Shown in pieces: positions 7,065-39,952 of a stretch of DNA of 64,000 bases. The number at the start of each line of letters is the position of its first letter. Position 1 is the first letter of the stretch. Source of the stretch: Saccharibacter sp. 17.LH.SD (GTDB taxonomy: Bacteria > Pseudomonadota > Alphaproteobacteria > Acetobacterales > Acetobacteraceae); assembly GCF_009834805.1 (NCBI RefSeq), contig NZ_WVHO01000009.1, forward strand, positions 250,501 through 314,500. Reading direction: 5' to 3'. The notes under the pieces are model-generated. The model was given only the letters and a program-made list of their open reading frames with translations. It searched no databases and was not told where the DNA came from. Made by a program: the position numbers and the translations under genes.

Positions 7065-7078
7065 AATTTATGTATTAA

Positions 7079-7096
7079 TGATAATAATTATTATCA
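7079..7096. promoter_or_regulatory. Fur-box-like perfect palindrome upstream of the RND efflux operon
   Basis: TGATAATAATTATTATCA is an exact 18-bp palindrome, close to the Fur consensus of repeated GATAAT units. A weak promoter (TTCATG, 17 bases, TATTAA at 7073-7078) ends directly before it, so a bound regulator would cover the start site. It lies 105 bases before the adaptor gene. Confidence 0.6.
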
Positions 7097-7200: not shown

Positions 7201-8409
7201 ATGACTGTGCCTCAAAGGAAGTCTTTAACTAAGGGGAGGTTGATGTCTTCTCTTATCCTAACTTTGCTTCCCATGATGGTTGGGTTTTCCTTAGCGTCTT
7301 CTGCTTTAGCTGAAGAGCTTCCTTTTTGGCGCCAACCTGTCGTCTTGAGCGTGGAAGCACAACGTAATGAGGGGCTGCACTATGCTCCCGTCACGCTAGG
7401 TGATATTGCGCCGCATATTTCAGCAATGGCGAGCATTCTTGCTAATCGAGCAGGTTCCGTGGCGATTCATCCAGCGGGTGAGGGTAAAGTCGCTGAGATT
7501 CTTGCTCTCCCGGGGCAAATTGTTCGTAAAGGTCAAGGGCTTCTTGTCTATACAGATCACTCATTACATGAGTTGCATTTGGCGATGGAGCAAGCTTCTT
7601 CACGGTTAGAAAAAGCTCAAGCTTTTCTGAAAGATGCACGTTTTTCCTATCAACGTGGCGTTAGCTTATTAGGGGCAAGTGTCTCTCAAGGTGAGTTAAG
7701 CACTCGGCGTGCACGGTTGAATGCCGCACAAAGTGATGTTGAATCACAGCGTGCTGAAATTCAGATGTTAGAGCATAGAATGACAGATGAATTTACATCG
7801 CCGACGGAGAAAATCATACGAGATGAAACGTCCTTATTAAAATCTCCGGTTGATGGAAGCGTGGAGGAGATCAATACCGCTGTAAATAATACCATTACGC
7901 CGAGTGATATCGTTATCAGTGTGACGGATACATCGACAATTTGGGCGGTTGCATTTGTACGCCAGGAAGATATCGCTCAAATTTCTTTGGGAAGCACGAT
8001 GATTTTGTCGCCTGCAGGGGCGATGGCCATGCCTTCTTTTACGACATACGTAAAAACCATTGAGAGTGTTGTCGATCCCATGACGGGGCTAGTACGCGTT
8101 ATGGCTACCTTGAATGATCCGACGCATCGCTTCCGCCCAGGAATGCAGCTCGATGCGACACTTTTATCATCGCATCCCGTTCATGGGCTGATCATTCCAG
8201 CTGCCGCCCTACAGGAAGTTAGTGGCCATATGCTTGTTTATACAAAGGTGGGTCAGGATCATTTTCAACCCCACATGGTTGTGCCTGTCGTAGAGTTGAA
8301 TGACCATGTGGTTGTGACGGGTGATATTAAGCCGAATGATCAGGTGGTTGCTCAAGGCAGTTTTTCATTAAAATCGGTGGCGTTCTCAGCAAATATGGAA
8401 GGGGAATAA
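7201..8409 (+). CDS. RND efflux periplasmic adaptor (CusB/CzcB-like membrane fusion protein)
   Basis: 402 residues. It begins with a signal peptide (hydrophobic core SLILTLLPMMVGFSLA, cleavage near ALA-EE) preceded by a basic stretch, which favours the ATG at 7201 over the internal ATG at 7243. Then come a biotinyl-lipoyl-like half (VAEILALPGQIVRKGQGLLVY), an alpha-helical hairpin (about 120-190), the second lipoyl half (LLKSPVDGSVEEI) and beta-barrel parts (DPTHRFRPGMQLDATL). The adaptor links the inner-membrane pump to an outer-membrane channel. It is followed after 6 bases by the pump gene. No histidine- or methionine-rich metal cluster is evident at the N-terminus, so the metal is unknown. 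Confidence 0.88.
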   Translation: MTVPQRKSLTKGRLMSSLILTLLPMMVGFSLASSALAEELPFWRQPVVLSVEAQRNEGLHYAPVTLGDIAPHISAMASILANRAGSVAIHPAGEGKVAEILALPGQIVRKGQGLLVYTDHSLHELHLAMEQASSRLEKAQAFLKDARFSYQRGVSLLGASVSQGELSTRRARLNAAQSDVESQRAEIQMLEHRMTDEFTSPTEKIIRDETSLLKSPVDGSVEEINTAVNNTITPSDIVISVTDTSTIWAVAFVRQEDIAQISLGSTMILSPAGAMAMPSFTTYVKTIESVVDPMTGLVRVMATLNDPTHRFRPGMQLDATLLSSHPVHGLIIPAAALQEVSGHMLVYTKVGQDHFQPHMVVPVVELNDHVVVTGDIKPNDQVVAQGSFSLKSVAFSANMEGE

Positions 8410-8415
8410 CGCCTC

Positions 8416-11400
8416 ATGTTTGCTGCGTTTCAGAAGCAAAGATTCTTTATTATTGGGTGTGTTGTAGCGCTATGGGGCGTTGGTGTCTTCTGTATGGACA
8501 CCCTGCCTGTTGAGCCTGTCCCCGATATATCACCTAAACAAGTTCTCGTGTCTGCAACGGTTCCGGATTTAGCAACTGAGGAAGTAGAAAAGCTCATTAC
8601 GTTTCCTGTTGAAGCGAGTTTGACCGGCATAAAAGGGGTCACCGATTTGCGGTCAGTGTCGCGGACGGGGGTATCCGCCATTTATCTGCAATTTGATGAC
8701 GCAACAGATATTGATCAGGATCGTACCTTTGTTGCTGAATGTCTGCAGGAGGCACATGACACTATTGCTGTGCCTGGTGTCTCCCTAACACTGGGACCGC
8801 GTGCAACAGGCATGGGTGAGATCATGCAATTTCAGATCAAAGGGCGTGGTTATTCGCTGATGGATCTGAACAGGCTTATGCGTTGGAAGGTGGTTCCACA
8901 ATTGAAGCTCGTGCCTGGTGTGGCCGATGTGAATGTGAACGGGGGAACAGAGGAAACCTTTCAGGTTGCTTTAGATCCCGTTAGGTTGAGGACGTATGGT
9001 TTAACGGTCTCTGATGTTTATCAGGCAATTGATAGAAATAATCAGTCTGCCGGCGGTGGTTGGATTGTCCATCAAGCTGAACAACAGGTCGTTGTGGGGC
9101 GTGCTTTAATCAGTACTCTTAACGAGTTTGCTAATATCCCACTGAAAATCACGCCAAGCGGTCCGGTGGTGCGATTGAAAGACGTCGGGGATATTTCTCA
9201 AGCTCCACGGACACAGCTTGGAGCAGTGACACGTGACGGAAAAGGGGAGATCGTCACAGGATCTGTTTTAATGCAAGCCGATGCGAGTTCTAACGCTGTC
9301 TTGGCAGCAATACACAAAGCATGGCCTATCATTCTGCAGTCTCTGCCACAGAATGTTACCTTAGAGACTTTTTATCAAAGGTCTACTTTAACGCATGAGA
9401 CGATCACGACGGTTAAAGATAATCTGCTTTTAGGCGCGGGATTGGTTGTTGTTGTCCTAATTGTGATTTTAGGCGAATGGCGTGCATCTTTGGTCATTGC
9501 ATCGGCCATTCCAGCGGCTTTGTGCGCAGCGATGATAGGAATGCGTTATTTTGGGGTATCGGCGAACCTATTGAGCTTGGGTGCAATCGATTTTGGTATG
9601 ATTGTCGATAGCTCTCTTGTGGTGGTCGAGCATTTCATCAATCGTCGTCGAGAAAAAATAATAAGTGAAACCGTAGCAGAAACAGCGATTGAGTCTGCAC
9701 GTGCTGTTGTGAAGCCGGTTAGCTTCGCCATTTTTGTTATTATTCTGGTTTATCTTCCCATTCTGACGCTGGAAGATATTGAAGGAAAGATGTTCCGCCC
9801 CATGGCCCAAACAGTGGTTATGGCGCTTCTAGCATCGCTCGTTTACTGCTTCGCTGTTATTCCTGTTCTTTCCGTATTATTGCTTCATAACGTTAATAAA
9901 GGGCATGAAACACGCGTTATTACATTTTTACATCATTATTATACGCTGTTTCTGACGTGGAGCTTATCACACCGCAAGCTTGTCTTAAGTGCTATGCTTT
10001 GTGGATGCGCTGGGGCGGGTTTGTTGGCGCTCCATCTGGGAGGTGAGTTTGTCCCGCAATTAGAAGAAGGTGATGTCACAGTGACGGCCGTGCGCTTACC
10101 GAGCGCGTCGTTACCAACCGTTTTGGACGCCCTTAAAAAGCAAGAAACAATTTTGCGGTCCTTCCCAGAGGTGAAGACGGTTGTGACGACAACAGGAACC
10201 TCTGCCATACCGACGGATCCAATGGGTGTTAATGAGTCTGATAGCTATGTGCTGCTAAAGCCGCGTTCTGAATGGTCTGTGGGGCAAACACAAGCACATC
10301 TCGTTGCTCAGATGGCTGAAACGCTTGAGGAAAAACTCCCTAGTGCAGACTATGAATGGTCCCAGCCAATTCAAATGAGAATGGATGATCTTTTAGCCGG
10401 GGTGAGAACACAACTGGCGATTTCCATTTACGGCAATGACCTGCAAGAGTTGGATCGTCTTTCTCATCATTTGACAGGAATTCTAACAAAAATTCCTGGT
10501 GCTGTAGATGTAGCCCCCCAAGGGGCGGGGACAGTGCCTTTTATTCATATTGATGTCGATCGTGAGGCCGCAGCACGACATGGCGTGCAAGTGACGGATG
10601 TCATGGATCAGATCAGCGCTATCGGTGGGTGGATTGGCACATCGTTGATGACGGGGCAAGCCATCATCCCTACGCAGATCCGCTTGAAACCTGAAGTTAT
10701 CCATTCTGTTGAGACGATTAAAGGATTGCCTATAAGAAGAGCTGATGGATCGGGGTGGATACCATTGTCTGATGTTGCGCGGATTTCGGTCGAGAATGGT
10801 GTCTCGCGCATTGATAGAGACCATTTGCAGCGGCGTGTTGTTGTCCAAGCCAATGTTAGAGGGCGTGATGTGAGTTCCTTTGTTGCGGAAGCACAGAAAA
10901 CGGTGGAACGTGATATGCCGCTCCCAGCAGGATACCACATTGAGTGGGCTGGGCAGTTTCGTAATCTCAATTCCGCTCTTGCACGTCTTTCAATCGTGCT
11001 GCCGATTGCCTTAGTGCTTATTTTTGGGCTGCTCGTAGTAGCCCTAGAATCCGTCGGGGCTGCTGCTCTGATTTTTGTTAATTTGCCGGTAGCTGCGAGT
11101 GGCGGTGTTTTTGCCCTCTACGGACGAGATATGCCATTTAGTATTGCTGCCGGGATTGGGTTTATCGCTTTATTTGGTGTCGCTATTTTGAATGGTGTTG
11201 TTTTAGTAAGCCAAATACAGACGTTACGAAAACAGGGAATAAATGTACGTCGTGCAGTTATAGACGCAACACAATCACGTTTTCGGCCTGTTGTGGCGAC
11301 GGCAAGTGTGGCGAGTATTGGGTTTTTTCCTATGGCTTTTTCTGGGAGCATGGGAGCTGAAGTTGAGAAGCCACTGGCAACTGTTGTGATTGGTGGCCTT

Positions 11401-11481
11401 TTAACCTCCACCTTACTCACATTGTGCGTTCTCCCAACTCTTTATATTTGGTTTTTTGAACGCCATTCGTTTGAAGCCTAA
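8416..11481 (+). CDS. heavy-metal efflux RND permease (CzcA/CusA family)
   Basis: 1021 residues with the RND layout: N-terminal membrane helix, two large periplasmic loops and clusters of membrane segments near 330-490 and 850-1010. The HME-RND signature is present: LGAIDFGMIVDSSLVVVEH, with the proton-relay residues D392, D398 and E405 spaced as in CzcA. The N-terminus PVEPVPDISPKQVLV is typical of metal pumps rather than drug pumps. It exports cations (Cu, Ag, Co, Zn, Cd, Ni or possibly Fe) using the proton gradient. It forms a pair with the adaptor. No outer-membrane factor gene adjoins, so a TolC-like protein must come from elsewhere. A Fur box precedes the operon, hinting at iron-linked control. 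Confidence 0.92.
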   Translation: MFAAFQKQRFFIIGCVVALWGVGVFCMDTLPVEPVPDISPKQVLVSATVPDLATEEVEKLITFPVEASLTGIKGVTDLRSVSRTGVSAIYLQFDDATDIDQDRTFVAECLQEAHDTIAVPGVSLTLGPRATGMGEIMQFQIKGRGYSLMDLNRLMRWKVVPQLKLVPGVADVNVNGGTEETFQVALDPVRLRTYGLTVSDVYQAIDRNNQSAGGGWIVHQAEQQVVVGRALISTLNEFANIPLKITPSGPVVRLKDVGDISQAPRTQLGAVTRDGKGEIVTGSVLMQADASSNAVLAAIHKAWPIILQSLPQNVTLETFYQRSTLTHETITTVKDNLLLGAGLVVVVLIVILGEWRASLVIASAIPAALCAAMIGMRYFGVSANLLSLGAIDFGMIVDSSLVVVEHFINRRREKIISETVAETAIESARAVVKPVSFAIFVIILVYLPILTLEDIEGKMFRPMAQTVVMALLASLVYCFAVIPVLSVLLLHNVNKGHETRVITFLHHYYTLFLTWSLSHRKLVLSAMLCGCAGAGLLALHLGGEFVPQLEEGDVTVTAVRLPSASLPTVLDALKKQETILRSFPEVKTVVTTTGTSAIPTDPMGVNESDSYVLLKPRSEWSVGQTQAHLVAQMAETLEEKLPSADYEWSQPIQMRMDDLLAGVRTQLAISIYGNDLQELDRLSHHLTGILTKIPGAVDVAPQGAGTVPFIHIDVDREAAARHGVQVTDVMDQISAIGGWIGTSLMTGQAIIPTQIRLKPEVIHSVETIKGLPIRRADGSGWIPLSDVARISVENGVSRIDRDHLQRRVVVQANVRGRDVSSFVAEAQKTVERDMPLPAGYHIEWAGQFRNLNSALARLSIVLPIALVLIFGLLVVALESVGAAALIFVNLPVAASGGVFALYGRDMPFSIAAGIGFIALFGVAILNGVVLVSQIQTLRKQGINVRRAVIDATQSRFRPVVATASVASIGFFPMAFSGSMGAEVEKPLATVVIGGLLTSTLLTLCVLPTLYIWFFERHSFEA

Positions 11482-12349: not shown

Positions 12350-14989
12350 ATGAAAAAATATTTATTATTAACAACGATTGCTTTGATAGCGAGCTGGGAA
12401 GGGAAAATGGCCTATGCAGAGGCGCCTTTTTCGTTTTCAACGACCCCAGGGCAGCTCCCTAAAAATGTAGTACCTTCCTATTATGATTTAGATCTCAGGT
12501 TAGATCCGCAAGCCCTTTTAATGAAAGGCCATGAAGCTGTCACGATAGATGTGTCATCCCCAACGCGATCCATCACGTTGAATCAAGCAGGGTTACAGAT
12601 TTTTCATGTTTCTTGTGATGATCAAAGCGCTAAGGCCGTTATTAAAGATGACAAGCAGCAAACAGCGACGTTCCGTTTTGTGCATCCGCTTCGACGTGGC
12701 AAACATATTTTACGCTTAGATTATACAGGGCCTATATTAGACACGCCCAATGGGCTTTATCATGATGATTATCAAGATGCTGAGGGGCATACGCACCGTT
12801 TACTCGTAACGCAGTTTGAAGTTGCTGATGCACGGCGTATGCTCCCTGTTTGGGATGAGCCGGCATTTAAGGCGCGTTTTGATGTGACGGTTACACTGCC
12901 GGCTTATGAGCATGCTGTGAGTAATATGCCGATTGCACGGGAGCGGGCTATTGGAGCTGGATGGAAAAGTGTTTTCTTCCAAACGACGCCACGCATGTCG
13001 AGCTATCTGTTAGCTTTTGTTGCTGGCGATATCTCGTCTGTTCGAACAGAAAGTTCGGGAGTTGATCTGAGTGTTTATGCGCCTTCAGGCCGGCAGAGCC
13101 AAGGAGACTATGCGCTTCACGCGGCTGCAGATATTCTGCCTTATTATAACGATTATTTCGGCGTGCGTTATCCATTACCGAAAATGGATATGCTCGCGAT
13201 CCCCGGCAATTACCAGGCTGGCGCGATGGAGAACTGGGGGGCGCTCACATATATTGATAATTATCTCTTGTTTGATCCGAAGAATAGCACGCCATACACA
13301 GGTGAGATGATTTATGAGGTTGTCGCACATGAGATGGCCCACCAATGGTCAGGTGATTTGGTCACGATGGGGTGGTGGAATAATCTTTGGTTAAATGAAG
13401 GTTTTGCCAGCTGGATGGAGATTAAAGCAGCAGATAAATTTAATCCAGAATGGCAGCTTTGGCCACGCCAACATGCAACGCGTGAGGCTACCATGGCGGT
13501 TGACGCGTTATCGACAACGCATCCGATTCAGCAGCCCATTCATAATGTGGAGGAAGCGGAGACGGTATTCGATAATATCAGCTATGGTAAGGGCGAGCAG
13601 GTTATCCGCATGTTAGAAGGGTGGCTTGGCGAGGAAAATTTCCGTGATGGAATGCGGCGTTACATGCGCGATCATGCCTATGGAAATACGACAAGCCAAG
13701 ACCTATGGAATGCTCTGTCGTTTGTATCTGGTCGTGATGTTACGAATGTTGCACGGAGCTTCACGGAACAAAAAGGATTTCCACAAATAAATGTTTCATT
13801 AACATGCCATAATAACAAGGGAATTTACAAAATTACACAAAAACGTTTTACGATCCATGACCGTAATGCGCAGCCATTATTTTGGGATATTCCTATTGTT
13901 TCCAGAAATTTTTATGGAAAACCACAAACGTCTGTATTGAAAGGGAATAGTAGTCTTTCGTTTATAGGGTCATGTGATAAACCATGGATATTTAACGAAG
14001 GAGAAAGTGGGTATTATCGTGTAAATTATGATAAAGTCTCATTTTCTTTAATAAAGAAAAACTTTAATGCTTTATCACCTGTTGATCAGGTTAATATTTT
14101 AGGTGATCAATATGCATTATTCTCCTCTGGTCAGAAAACATTAGATTTTTACTTTAATTTGTTAGGGGGTCTTCCTGATTCTCAAAAAAAGAATATTTCT
14201 CTTGTTGATGAAATGTTCGATCGTTTTACAGAATTAGATCAATTTGAACAAAACAAAGCCAGTCAGCCAGAGTTCCATAAATTTGTTCAACGTATATTAA
14301 TGCCGATATTCCAGAAAGTCGGATGGGATCAAAAACAAGGTGAAAGTGAGCTGGATGCGATCATGCGACCGCGGCTTATCACCATGCTAGGGCTTGCTGA
14401 AGACCCAGCGATTATACAAGAGGTAATGAAACGCTTTAAGCAATGGAGTAATGCCCCTGAGTCATTATCTCCGACCCTTGTCGGGCCTGTCACACTCTTA
14501 GTGGCTCGTCATGCTGATGAAGCGATTTGGTCCTTGTTGGTGGATCGCCTTCAGAATGCAACGAGTACGGAAGTGAAGCTCCGTTTATTCAATGCACTGT
14601 CTTATGTTACGAATCCTCAATTAATTGAGAAAACCATTCATTTGGCGTATAGCGGTGTCATTCCTAATGGTCGTATTGATCGTGTATTGGCGATTATAGG
14701 TGCCCATAGCGGGGACCCTCAGTTTGCTTGGCAGATTATTGTACAGCATAAACAGGAAATTCGTCAGCATTTAACGCCTGATGCGCAGAATGTCTTCTTG
14801 GCAGACATAGCTCGTTATGTTGGCGGGGCTGAGGTTATCTCTGATCTAAAAGAAGATGCACGTCAGCGCCATAATCGAGGCACTGATATTGCTACAGCAC
14901 GGGCATTAGAAACAATTGAAGCACGTGAAGAGCTTAAACTGCGTGCGGTGAAGCAGTTTGATGCATGGGAAAAAGGGCATGAGCAGTGA
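12350..14989 (+). CDS. secreted M1-family zinc aminopeptidase
   Basis: 879 residues. It has a signal peptide (KKYLLLTTIALIASWEG, cleavage near YAEA), then the M1 beta-domain. GAMEN is at 291-295 and binds the substrate N-terminus. The zinc site is HEMAH at 327-331, with E350 in NEGFA at the expected 18-residue spacing. The C-terminal half is the helical ERAP1-like domain. It removes N-terminal amino acids from peptides, here presumably in the periplasm. Its organisation is closer to the puromycin-sensitive/ERAP branch than to E. coli PepN. It stands alone, with no downstream partner before the 15.1-kb regulatory region. The start ATG is followed directly by the signal peptide. Confidence 0.93.
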   Translation: MKKYLLLTTIALIASWEGKMAYAEAPFSFSTTPGQLPKNVVPSYYDLDLRLDPQALLMKGHEAVTIDVSSPTRSITLNQAGLQIFHVSCDDQSAKAVIKDDKQQTATFRFVHPLRRGKHILRLDYTGPILDTPNGLYHDDYQDAEGHTHRLLVTQFEVADARRMLPVWDEPAFKARFDVTVTLPAYEHAVSNMPIARERAIGAGWKSVFFQTTPRMSSYLLAFVAGDISSVRTESSGVDLSVYAPSGRQSQGDYALHAAADILPYYNDYFGVRYPLPKMDMLAIPGNYQAGAMENWGALTYIDNYLLFDPKNSTPYTGEMIYEVVAHEMAHQWSGDLVTMGWWNNLWLNEGFASWMEIKAADKFNPEWQLWPRQHATREATMAVDALSTTHPIQQPIHNVEEAETVFDNISYGKGEQVIRMLEGWLGEENFRDGMRRYMRDHAYGNTTSQDLWNALSFVSGRDVTNVARSFTEQKGFPQINVSLTCHNNKGIYKITQKRFTIHDRNAQPLFWDIPIVSRNFYGKPQTSVLKGNSSLSFIGSCDKPWIFNEGESGYYRVNYDKVSFSLIKKNFNALSPVDQVNILGDQYALFSSGQKTLDFYFNLLGGLPDSQKKNISLVDEMFDRFTELDQFEQNKASQPEFHKFVQRILMPIFQKVGWDQKQGESELDAIMRPRLITMLGLAEDPAIIQEVMKRFKQWSNAPESLSPTLVGPVTLLVARHADEAIWSLLVDRLQNATSTEVKLRLFNALSYVTNPQLIEKTIHLAYSGVIPNGRIDRVLAIIGAHSGDPQFAWQIIVQHKQEIRQHLTPDAQNVFLADIARYVGGAEVISDLKEDARQRHNRGTDIATARALETIEAREELKLRAVKQFDAWEKGHEQ

Positions 14990-15080
14990 GGTTCTTTCAG
15001 GAGGTACAGGGGAGTTTTGTGCTGTTTGTGCCACATATTCGTGCGCGGAGAGAGAAGGCCTTCTTTTGCGAAGAAAGAAG

Positions 15081-15136
15081 TTGATAGAGCGATAGGGCGG
15101 TGATATTTTAAAATTGATAATGATTATCATTATCAA
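15081..15136 (+). promoter_or_regulatory. promoter with overlapping Fur box
   Basis: -35 TTGATA (15081-15086), exactly 17 bases, -10 TATTTT (15104-15109). Immediately after, 15114-15136 is a 23-base perfect palindrome (arms TTGATAATGAT) matching the Fur consensus GATAATGAT-ATCATTATC. The predicted start near 15116 lies inside the box, the classical arrangement for iron-dependent repression. Confidence 0.6.
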
Positions 15137-15304
15137 AAGTCATCCGCACATACATCATACAGCGAGAAGGGAAGATTTTCTTCTCGCTGTATGATGTGCT
15201 GACTGTGTGAGAGTGCGTCCTGTAGGATATGTTTAAAGAACGCATATAGTCTATGGGTAAACGCCATAAGTCTTGTGCAATGTATCTTATGCACAAGACC
15301 TTTT
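15116..15304 (+). ncRNA. candidate Fur-repressed small RNA
   Basis: No protein gene fits the 338 bases between the aminopeptidase and fumC. Downstream of the Fur-box promoter come a perfect 18-bp stem with a 10-base loop (15152-15169 with 15180-15197) and then a terminator-like 10-bp stem (15270-15279 with 15290-15299) followed by CTTTT. This would give an RNA of about 190 bases. The layout resembles RyhB-type iron-responsive RNAs in other proteobacteria. There is no recognised sequence family. The last stem might instead belong to the leftward fumC transcript. Confidence 0.4.
15270..15304 (+). terminator. putative intrinsic terminator
   Basis: GTCTTGTGCA pairs with TGCACAAGAC (10 bp, 10-base loop), followed by CTTTT on the plus strand. 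Leftwards it lies 29 bases after the fumC stop but has no good T-run in that direction, so it may serve either or both strands. Confidence 0.45.
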
Positions 15305-15327
15305 CCGTAAAGAAACTATGTATTGAC

Positions 15328-16725
15328 TTACAGTGTAATATTAGGATGAAGCATTAGATGTGGGTCGGCGATACGGTCATAGTCTTCGGCTGTCATCACA
15401 CCAAGGTCCAAAGCACTTTGACGCGGAGATAATCCCTTTTCCATAGCATGATGGGCCACCTGTGACGCTTTATCGTAACCGATAGCAGGGGAGAGAGCTG
15501 TGACAAGCACCAGAGAATGTTCTAGAGCTTCTTTGATATGTGTCTCGTTAGCTTCTATTCCCTCAATGAGGAACTTACAGAAATTGTTCATACCATCATG
15601 AAGAAGTGTCATGCTCTGCATGATGTTATGGATGATGAGTGGTTTGTAGGCGTTCATATCAAGCATACCACTCGCGCCCCCCATACCAACAGCAACATCA
15701 TTGCTCATCACTTGTAGACATAGCATTGTCAGGGCTTCAGCCTGTGTCGGGTTGATTTTCCCTGGCATAATGGATGAGCCAGGTTCATTGGTGGGTAGAG
15801 TAAGTTCTCCTAACCCAGCACGAGGGCCACAGGCTAATAAGCGAATATCGTTTGCAATTTTAAAAAGGCTATTGGCGAGGCCACGTAAACAACTTGAGAG
15901 ATGAACAAGCGAATCATGGGCTCCTTGGAGAGCAAATTTGTTCGTCCCGCTCGTAAATTTGAGCTTTGTTAAGCGTGTGATTTCTGCGCAGGCACGCTCT
16001 GCAAACTCTTCGTCTGTATTAACTCCCGTTCCCAGAGCGGTACCACCTAATGCAAGGGGGAGAAGAGCATCACGTGCTTGCTCTAGTCGGTCAATATGCT
16101 CGTCAAGCATACCGACATAGCCATACCATTCCTGCCCAAGCGTAATGGGCACTGCATCTTGTAAATGTGTGCGGCCAACCTTAACGATTTTTTCCCACTG
16201 TTTAGATTTTTTCGCCATGGCATTGCGTAAGCGCGTTAGTGCTGGGAGTAGCTGACGGTGCACACCAATGACGCTTGCAATATGCATTGCACTTGGGAAG
16301 GTATCATTGGTGGATTGGGCCATATTAACGTCATCATTAGGATGCAATGGCGTTTTGCTCCCTAATTTATAGCCTTCAATTTGGCTTGCACGGTTTGCAA
16401 TGACTTCGTTGATATTCATGTTGAACTGTGTGCCAGATCCCGTCATCCAAACATGCAGCGGGAACATGCGGTCATGCATTCCACTCATGATTTCGTCACA
16501 AATAACGAGGATGAGATCTTTTTTCTTTTTGGAAAGGCGGCCACTTTCGGCGTTTGAGACAGCGCAAGCACGTTTAATGATGGCATAGGCTTCAATCATC
16601 TCGCGTGGGATGATTTCACGACCAATGCTGAAATAATGCAGAGAGCGTTGAGTTTGAGCGCCCCAGAGTACGTCATTGGGGACCTCAATTTCGCCCAAAC
16701 CGTCCGTTTCTGTGCGTGTGCTCAT
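15328..16725 (-). CDS. fumC: class II fumarate hydratase
   Basis: 465 residues from ATG 16725 (TAGGAAAA upstream), matching the usual 460-470 of FumC; a longer frame to 16839 is not needed. It carries the superfamily signature [13 protein letters not shown] and FumC segments such as [19 protein letters not shown] and [18 protein letters not shown]. It interconverts fumarate and malate in the TCA cycle without an iron-sulfur cluster, so it works under iron limitation. It lies downstream of the malic-enzyme gene in the same direction, which would let malate flow to pyruvate. The next feature downstream is the Fur-box region. Confidence 0.96.
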
Positions 16726-39596: not shown

Positions 39597-39685
39597 GAAA
39601 TCCCTCCATGAAAACCTATAGCAACAATGCTACAGACGTTATGGCGGGCCGTGGAAGTCCTGCTCTGCATGTAGAAGAAACAGGG

Positions 39686-39740
39686 CCTCTTTAGCGCAAT
39701 TTTTTAACCTCGCCGCAAGCCGGCCGCTCAAATCACGAGG
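39686..39740 (-). promoter_or_regulatory. SAM-II riboswitch upstream of metZ
   Basis: Reading leftwards the leader contains CTCGTGATTTGAG, CCGGCTTGCGGC, GAGGTTAAAAAATTG and GCTAAAG in the order of the SAM-II (metA) aptamer, an H-type pseudoknot found mainly in alphaproteobacteria. SAM binding would hide the ribosome site about 90 bases downstream, near GGAGGGA before the metZ ATG. Confidence 0.92.
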
Positions 39741-39773
39741 GTACCCTTTGTTCATAAAAAGGCACGGTCCGAG

Positions 39774-39878: not shown

Positions 39879-39952
39879 GCGGGTGTAGTTCAATGGTAGA
39901 ACGGCAGCTTCCCAAGCTGCATACGGGGGTTCGATTCCCCTCATCCGCTCCA
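39879..39952 (+). tRNA. tRNA-Gly (anticodon CCC), CCA encoded
   Basis: Cloverleaf of 74 bases: acceptor GCGGGTG with CATCCGC (one G-U pair), D-arm with GTTCAATGGTAGAAC, anticodon stem GCAGC/GCTGC around loop TTCCCAA giving anticodon CCC, T-arm GGGGG-TTCGATT-CCCC, then discriminator T and genomic CCA. Reads GGG codons. A likely promoter (TTGCTT, 18 bases, TAAACG) lies just upstream. Divergent from the metZ leader. Confidence 0.97.

Follow-up and report, generated by a model that had tools for sequence, protein, structure and literature searches.

A predicted Fur-repressed small RNA restricted to the genus Saccharibacter

Saccharibacter sp. 17.LH.SD, the source of which is a Melissodes bee (PMC7171202), has a genome of 2.10 Mb in 13 contigs, and the stretch of DNA analysed here (64,000 nucleotides, referred to as the window) lies on contig 9. 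The convergent genes pepN and fumC are separated by a gap of 338 bases (14990-15327), in which a candidate small RNA element is located. The features of this locus are:

Ending at 14989, plus strand: pepN, coding for an M1 aminopeptidase.
15081-15109, plus strand: predicted promoter TTGATA (15081-15086), 17-bp spacer, TATTTT (15104-15109), with an extended -10 TG (sequence, sigma-70 matrix).
15114-15136, no strand assigned: predicted Fur operator TTGATAATGATTATCATTATCAA, a perfect 23-bp palindrome over the predicted transcription start (sequence match).
15138-15151, plus strand: conserved stretch AGTCATCCGCACAT that separates the Fur box from the hairpin, a putative seed (alignment of three genomes).
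15152-15197, plus strand: perfect 18-bp hairpin of conserved structure (folding, comparison).
15200-15210, plus strand: TGACTGTGTGA, presumably part of a former outer stem (exactly complementary, in reverse, to TCACACAGTCA of the relatives).
15270-15304, plus strand: 10-bp stem (15270-15279/15290-15299) followed by CTTTT, confined to the window strain, where it may mark the 3' end (sequence, folding).
Ending at 15328, minus strand: fumC.

Elsewhere in the window a SAM_alpha riboswitch (39670-39749, minus strand, 73.8 bits) lies close to a tRNA gene (39879-39949, plus strand).

The palindrome TTGATAATGATTATCATTATCAA is the longest perfect one within the 64 kb of the window and agrees with all 18 scored positions of the classical 19-bp Fur consensus; the 23-base Fur-type palindrome of the initial annotation, placed over the predicted start, is thus confirmed. 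The operator is predicted to overlap the promoter and start of a non-coding gene. In the three Saccharibacter genomes compared (the window strain, S. floricola DSM 15669 and Saccharibacter sp. EH611), none of the open reading frames downstream of the Fur box is retained across species, in agreement with the earlier statement that a plausible reading frame is absent, and a small frame running from the Fur box with a spurious MIIII start was rejected because it is not conserved. The well-spaced promoter that had been claimed upstream is present and, scored with a simple sigma-70 matrix, ranks within the top 0.1% when set against random 80-nt stretches taken from the window. Its strength is, however, a property of the window strain, since the aligned position in S. 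floricola and EH611 reads TTGCTT-17-CATTGT and is a weak sigma-70 match.

The Fur boxes of both relatives are identical to that of the window strain except at the centre and the edge. With up to three mismatches allowed, the element's box is the sole one in the genome of S. floricola, three boxes are present in EH611 and four in the window strain (the element's, one identical copy and two weaker sites); among all boxes found, the element's copy is the best conserved. The second perfect palindrome of the window strain (G000:C12:36961-36979; L003 1501-1521) lies between a catalase-like and a CorA-like transporter gene, both named by reading and not by family search, and the two weaker boxes precede TonB-receptor-like genes, one recognised by a Pfam Plug match and the other by its start sequence. 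This type of box is therefore found near iron-related genes, and the sites before the two TonB-receptor-like genes support the use of such an operator in the window strain. In a different genus of the Acetobacteraceae (L078), a similar box stands before a catalase-like gene. Two Fur-family proteins are encoded in each of the three genomes. Those of the window strain come nearest to the models of the ferric uptake regulator (the first) and of Zur (the second), and both score under the curated equivalog cut-offs. Hfq is also encoded in this organism. An AT-rich palindrome with a GATAATAATTATTATC core at 7074-7096 of the window, which agrees at 14 of 18 Fur positions, lies upstream of an RND-type efflux operon (7201-11481) and is possibly a metal-regulator site.

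To the right of the operator, the segment AGTCATCCGCACAT is identical at 14 of 14 positions in S. floricola and at 13 of 14 in EH611. The 18-bp hairpin that follows is perfect, as had been described, with arms (15152-15169/15180-15197) that are 100% complementary and form the longest perfect stem in the window for loops of 3-15 nt. The region 15137-15212 folds at -40.6 kcal/mol, compared with -17.3 ± 3.1 kcal/mol for shuffled sequences (z = -7.5). Fur box, 14 bases and hairpin are kept as a block in all three genomes despite differing flanking genes. The gene order in S. floricola and EH611 is fumC, TonB-dependent receptor, element, tauD-like dioxygenase, pepN; the window strain lacks both the TonB receptor and the tauD-like gene at this locus. 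Because the TonB receptor stands between fumC and the element in the relatives, the adjacency of fumC is incidental, a direct role for this gene was rejected and no link to it is supported. Neither an aminopeptidase gene nor a Fur box was found within 3 kb of fumC in Bombella, Gluconobacter and Asaia. Conservation stands to the right of the Fur box and not to the left, where successive blocks of 24 bases share 10, 12 and 7 identical positions; other intergenic sequence of the relatives can hardly be aligned with the window, and the fumC DNA is about 76% identical.

The hairpin has the same geometry and size in S. floricola and EH611, and its stem sequence is largely changed. In an alignment of 21 pairs, 92% of the cells are paired, five pairs are changed on both sides and nine are invariant; control alignments that were slid against each other gave 0-2 double-changed pairs with 33-60% paired. 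S. floricola and EH611 are nearly identical at the element, so this covariation amounts to one comparison between two lineages. Beyond the perfect stem, TGACTGTGTGA matches in full the reverse complement of TCACACAGTCA, which flanks the hairpin on its 5' side in both relatives (none of 2000 shuffles was as good), and the window strain's own 5' flank reads TCAAAAGTCA. This complementarity indicates, at the level of sequence, that an older outer stem once extended to the edge of the Fur box.

The initial annotation had further placed the end of the RNA at a 10-bp stem with CTTTT. This stem exists at 15270-15304 and the stretch around it folds moderately better than chance (z = -2.5), but it falls short of the terminator criterion of the prediction tool and has no counterpart in S. 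floricola or EH611, where the TonB-receptor gene lies instead. No convincing terminator was found in the relatives before this gene or near its antisense side. The expectation of stems with compensating changes thus holds for the 18-bp hairpin, with five double changes between two lineages, but not for the 3' stem. The broader claim of a Fur-controlled structured non-coding RNA is supported by the box, the 14 bases and the hairpin, all kept within the genus; conservation of the 3' stem and a connection to fumC are not supported.

The position of the block between converging genes in all three genomes (pepN and fumC, or tauD and the TonB receptor) allows for a different function of the hairpin, namely that of a two-sided 3'-end element that stops transcription or protects the mRNAs of both genes, next to an unrelated or idle Fur box. 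We regard this as unlikely. The 18-bp stem is not accompanied by a T-run on either side in any of the three genomes, and downstream of fumC EH611 already has a hairpin with TTTTT that looks like a canonical terminator, so that the 18-bp hairpin is unlike the ordinary terminator of the genus. Moreover, the flanking genes differ among the genomes, and a plain terminator would have no need of the Fur box and 14-nt spacer that are conserved along with the hairpin.

The locus may also be a palindromic DNA relic with no present function, in which a Fur box left behind after gene loss adjoins an imperfect palindrome homogenised by template switching. The window strain has indeed no neighbouring tauD and TonB receptor, and 11 bases on its right side repeat, exactly and in reverse, those on the left side in the relatives. 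Since one arm can keep or copy the sequence of the other, as in TGACTGTGTGA and TCACACAGTCA, template switching, with no selection on an RNA, could account for part of the compensating changes. We nevertheless consider a relic distinctly improbable: the Fur box is perfect in each of the three genomes, against a background in which the remaining intergenic sequence has diverged almost beyond alignment, and in the relatives it lies at the 3' ends of tauD and of the TonB receptor and is therefore not the promoter of either gene.

The element is present in a single copy in each of the three genomes. A covariance model of Fur box, spacer and hairpin, built from the three Saccharibacter sequences and applied with strict filters, matches all three members of the genus with 101-113 bits and none of 395 other Acetobacteraceae genomes, a result with which blastn and a pattern search agree. 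Conservation of the structure across the Acetobacteraceae is therefore not supported, and the element was found in one genus only (3 of 398 genomes). Other pattern matches in the 398 genomes of the family, rejected as candidates, comprised only a loose half-box with TCATCCGC and were missed by the covariance model. Rfam holds no family for the block at gathering or relaxed thresholds; RyhB, PrrF, NrrF, FsrA and IsrR were not matched even at a relaxed E-value, and with the RyhB covariance model (RF00057) giving no match, descent from RyhB is not detectable.

A search confined to near-exact complements of the putative seed yielded one noteworthy site near a gene start, upstream of edd. This gene codes for 6-phosphogluconate dehydratase, a [4Fe-4S] enzyme (best match TIGR01196). 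In the window strain the complement to the region of AGTCATCCGCACAT extends over 12 bp, with a predicted pairing energy of -26.9 kcal/mol; in the relatives it covers 11 bp, at a predicted -25.8 kcal/mol. The other matches lie mostly inside genes or on the wrong strand and were rejected, for example in rplU and an adenylosuccinate-lyase-like gene (both named from sequence). The motif upstream of edd is also partly kept, as GCGGATGA, in most of a further genus, probably Bombella, in which the small RNA element was not found although the edd upstream region is conserved and in which the counterpart of the motif abuts or overlaps the best -10 match. The site may consequently be promoter DNA and not a small RNA target, and we treat edd as a lead, not as evidence. 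About 110 nt upstream of edd (L162 862-1014, minus strand; L216, L217, L224-L249) are strongly conserved in Saccharibacter and the probable Bombella and partly in other genera; this region has no Rfam match and may be a cis-regulatory leader or promoter.

The least probable of the alternatives, that transcription driven from the Fur box runs leftwards and yields an RNA antisense to the 3' end of pepN (window strain) or of tauD (relatives), whose product is an iron-dependent dioxygenase, would explain aligned minus-strand hexamers resembling a -10 element (TAAAAT, TACAAT, AACAAT) and the recurrence upstream of edd of GTGCGGATGAC, the minus-strand form of the conserved segment, as a promoter-side DNA motif with its -10-abutting counterpart in Bombella, but it conflicts with unremarkable minus-strand promoter scores, which 18-28% of random stretches equal, and with the poor conservation left of the box.

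We therefore lean, with modest confidence, towards a genus-restricted, Fur-repressed small RNA that would resemble RyhB in action without being its homologue. The weak sigma-70 match and the want of a convincing terminator in two relatives, the number of independent lineages (two), the covariation possibly due to template switching and the thin target evidence were counted against this assignment. A Fur protein bound over a start site is expected to repress in the presence of iron and to permit transcription in its absence. We assume that with iron present Fur-Fe(II) would occupy the palindrome at the transcription start and block RNA polymerase, and that in iron shortage transcription would proceed rightwards through AGUCAUCCGCACAU and the long hairpin. 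An end near the hairpin would give an RNA of about 80 nt; in the window strain the RNA may instead run on to the second stem and reach about 170-190 nt. Pairing of AGUCAUCCGCACAU, which is conserved and largely unpaired, with mRNAs, probably together with Hfq, could then reduce the production of proteins that use or take up iron.

Known examples of small RNAs repressed by Fur come from gamma- and betaproteobacteria and from Firmicutes. The open-access papers searched report no Fur-controlled small RNA of Alphaproteobacteria, a gap that the Caulobacter study of the small RNA RusT also points out (PMC11005374). It is quite doubtful that the present candidate is the first of its kind in this class, has arisen within Saccharibacter and counts edd among its targets. 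If edd were a target, iron shortage would adjust the Entner-Doudoroff catabolism of sugars in a bee-associated acetic acid bacterium. Restriction to one genus would also show how fast such RNAs arise anew. With a candidate that is short and present in one copy, a perfect Fur operator and a strain in culture, the question can be put to the test. The candidate has a parallel in RusT of Caulobacter crescentus, likewise an alphaproteobacterial small RNA proposed for iron starvation, which is controlled by NtrYX and not by Fur, whereas the Saccharibacter element has a Fur box (PMC11005374 for RusT). Compared with RyhB of E. coli (RF00057) and its analogues PrrF, NrrF, FsrA and IsrR, the candidate has a very long, near-perfect stem, lacks a clear intrinsic terminator in the relatives and has putative targets only. 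What it shares with them is a Fur operator that covers the promoter of a stand-alone non-coding gene in an organism that encodes both Fur and Hfq.
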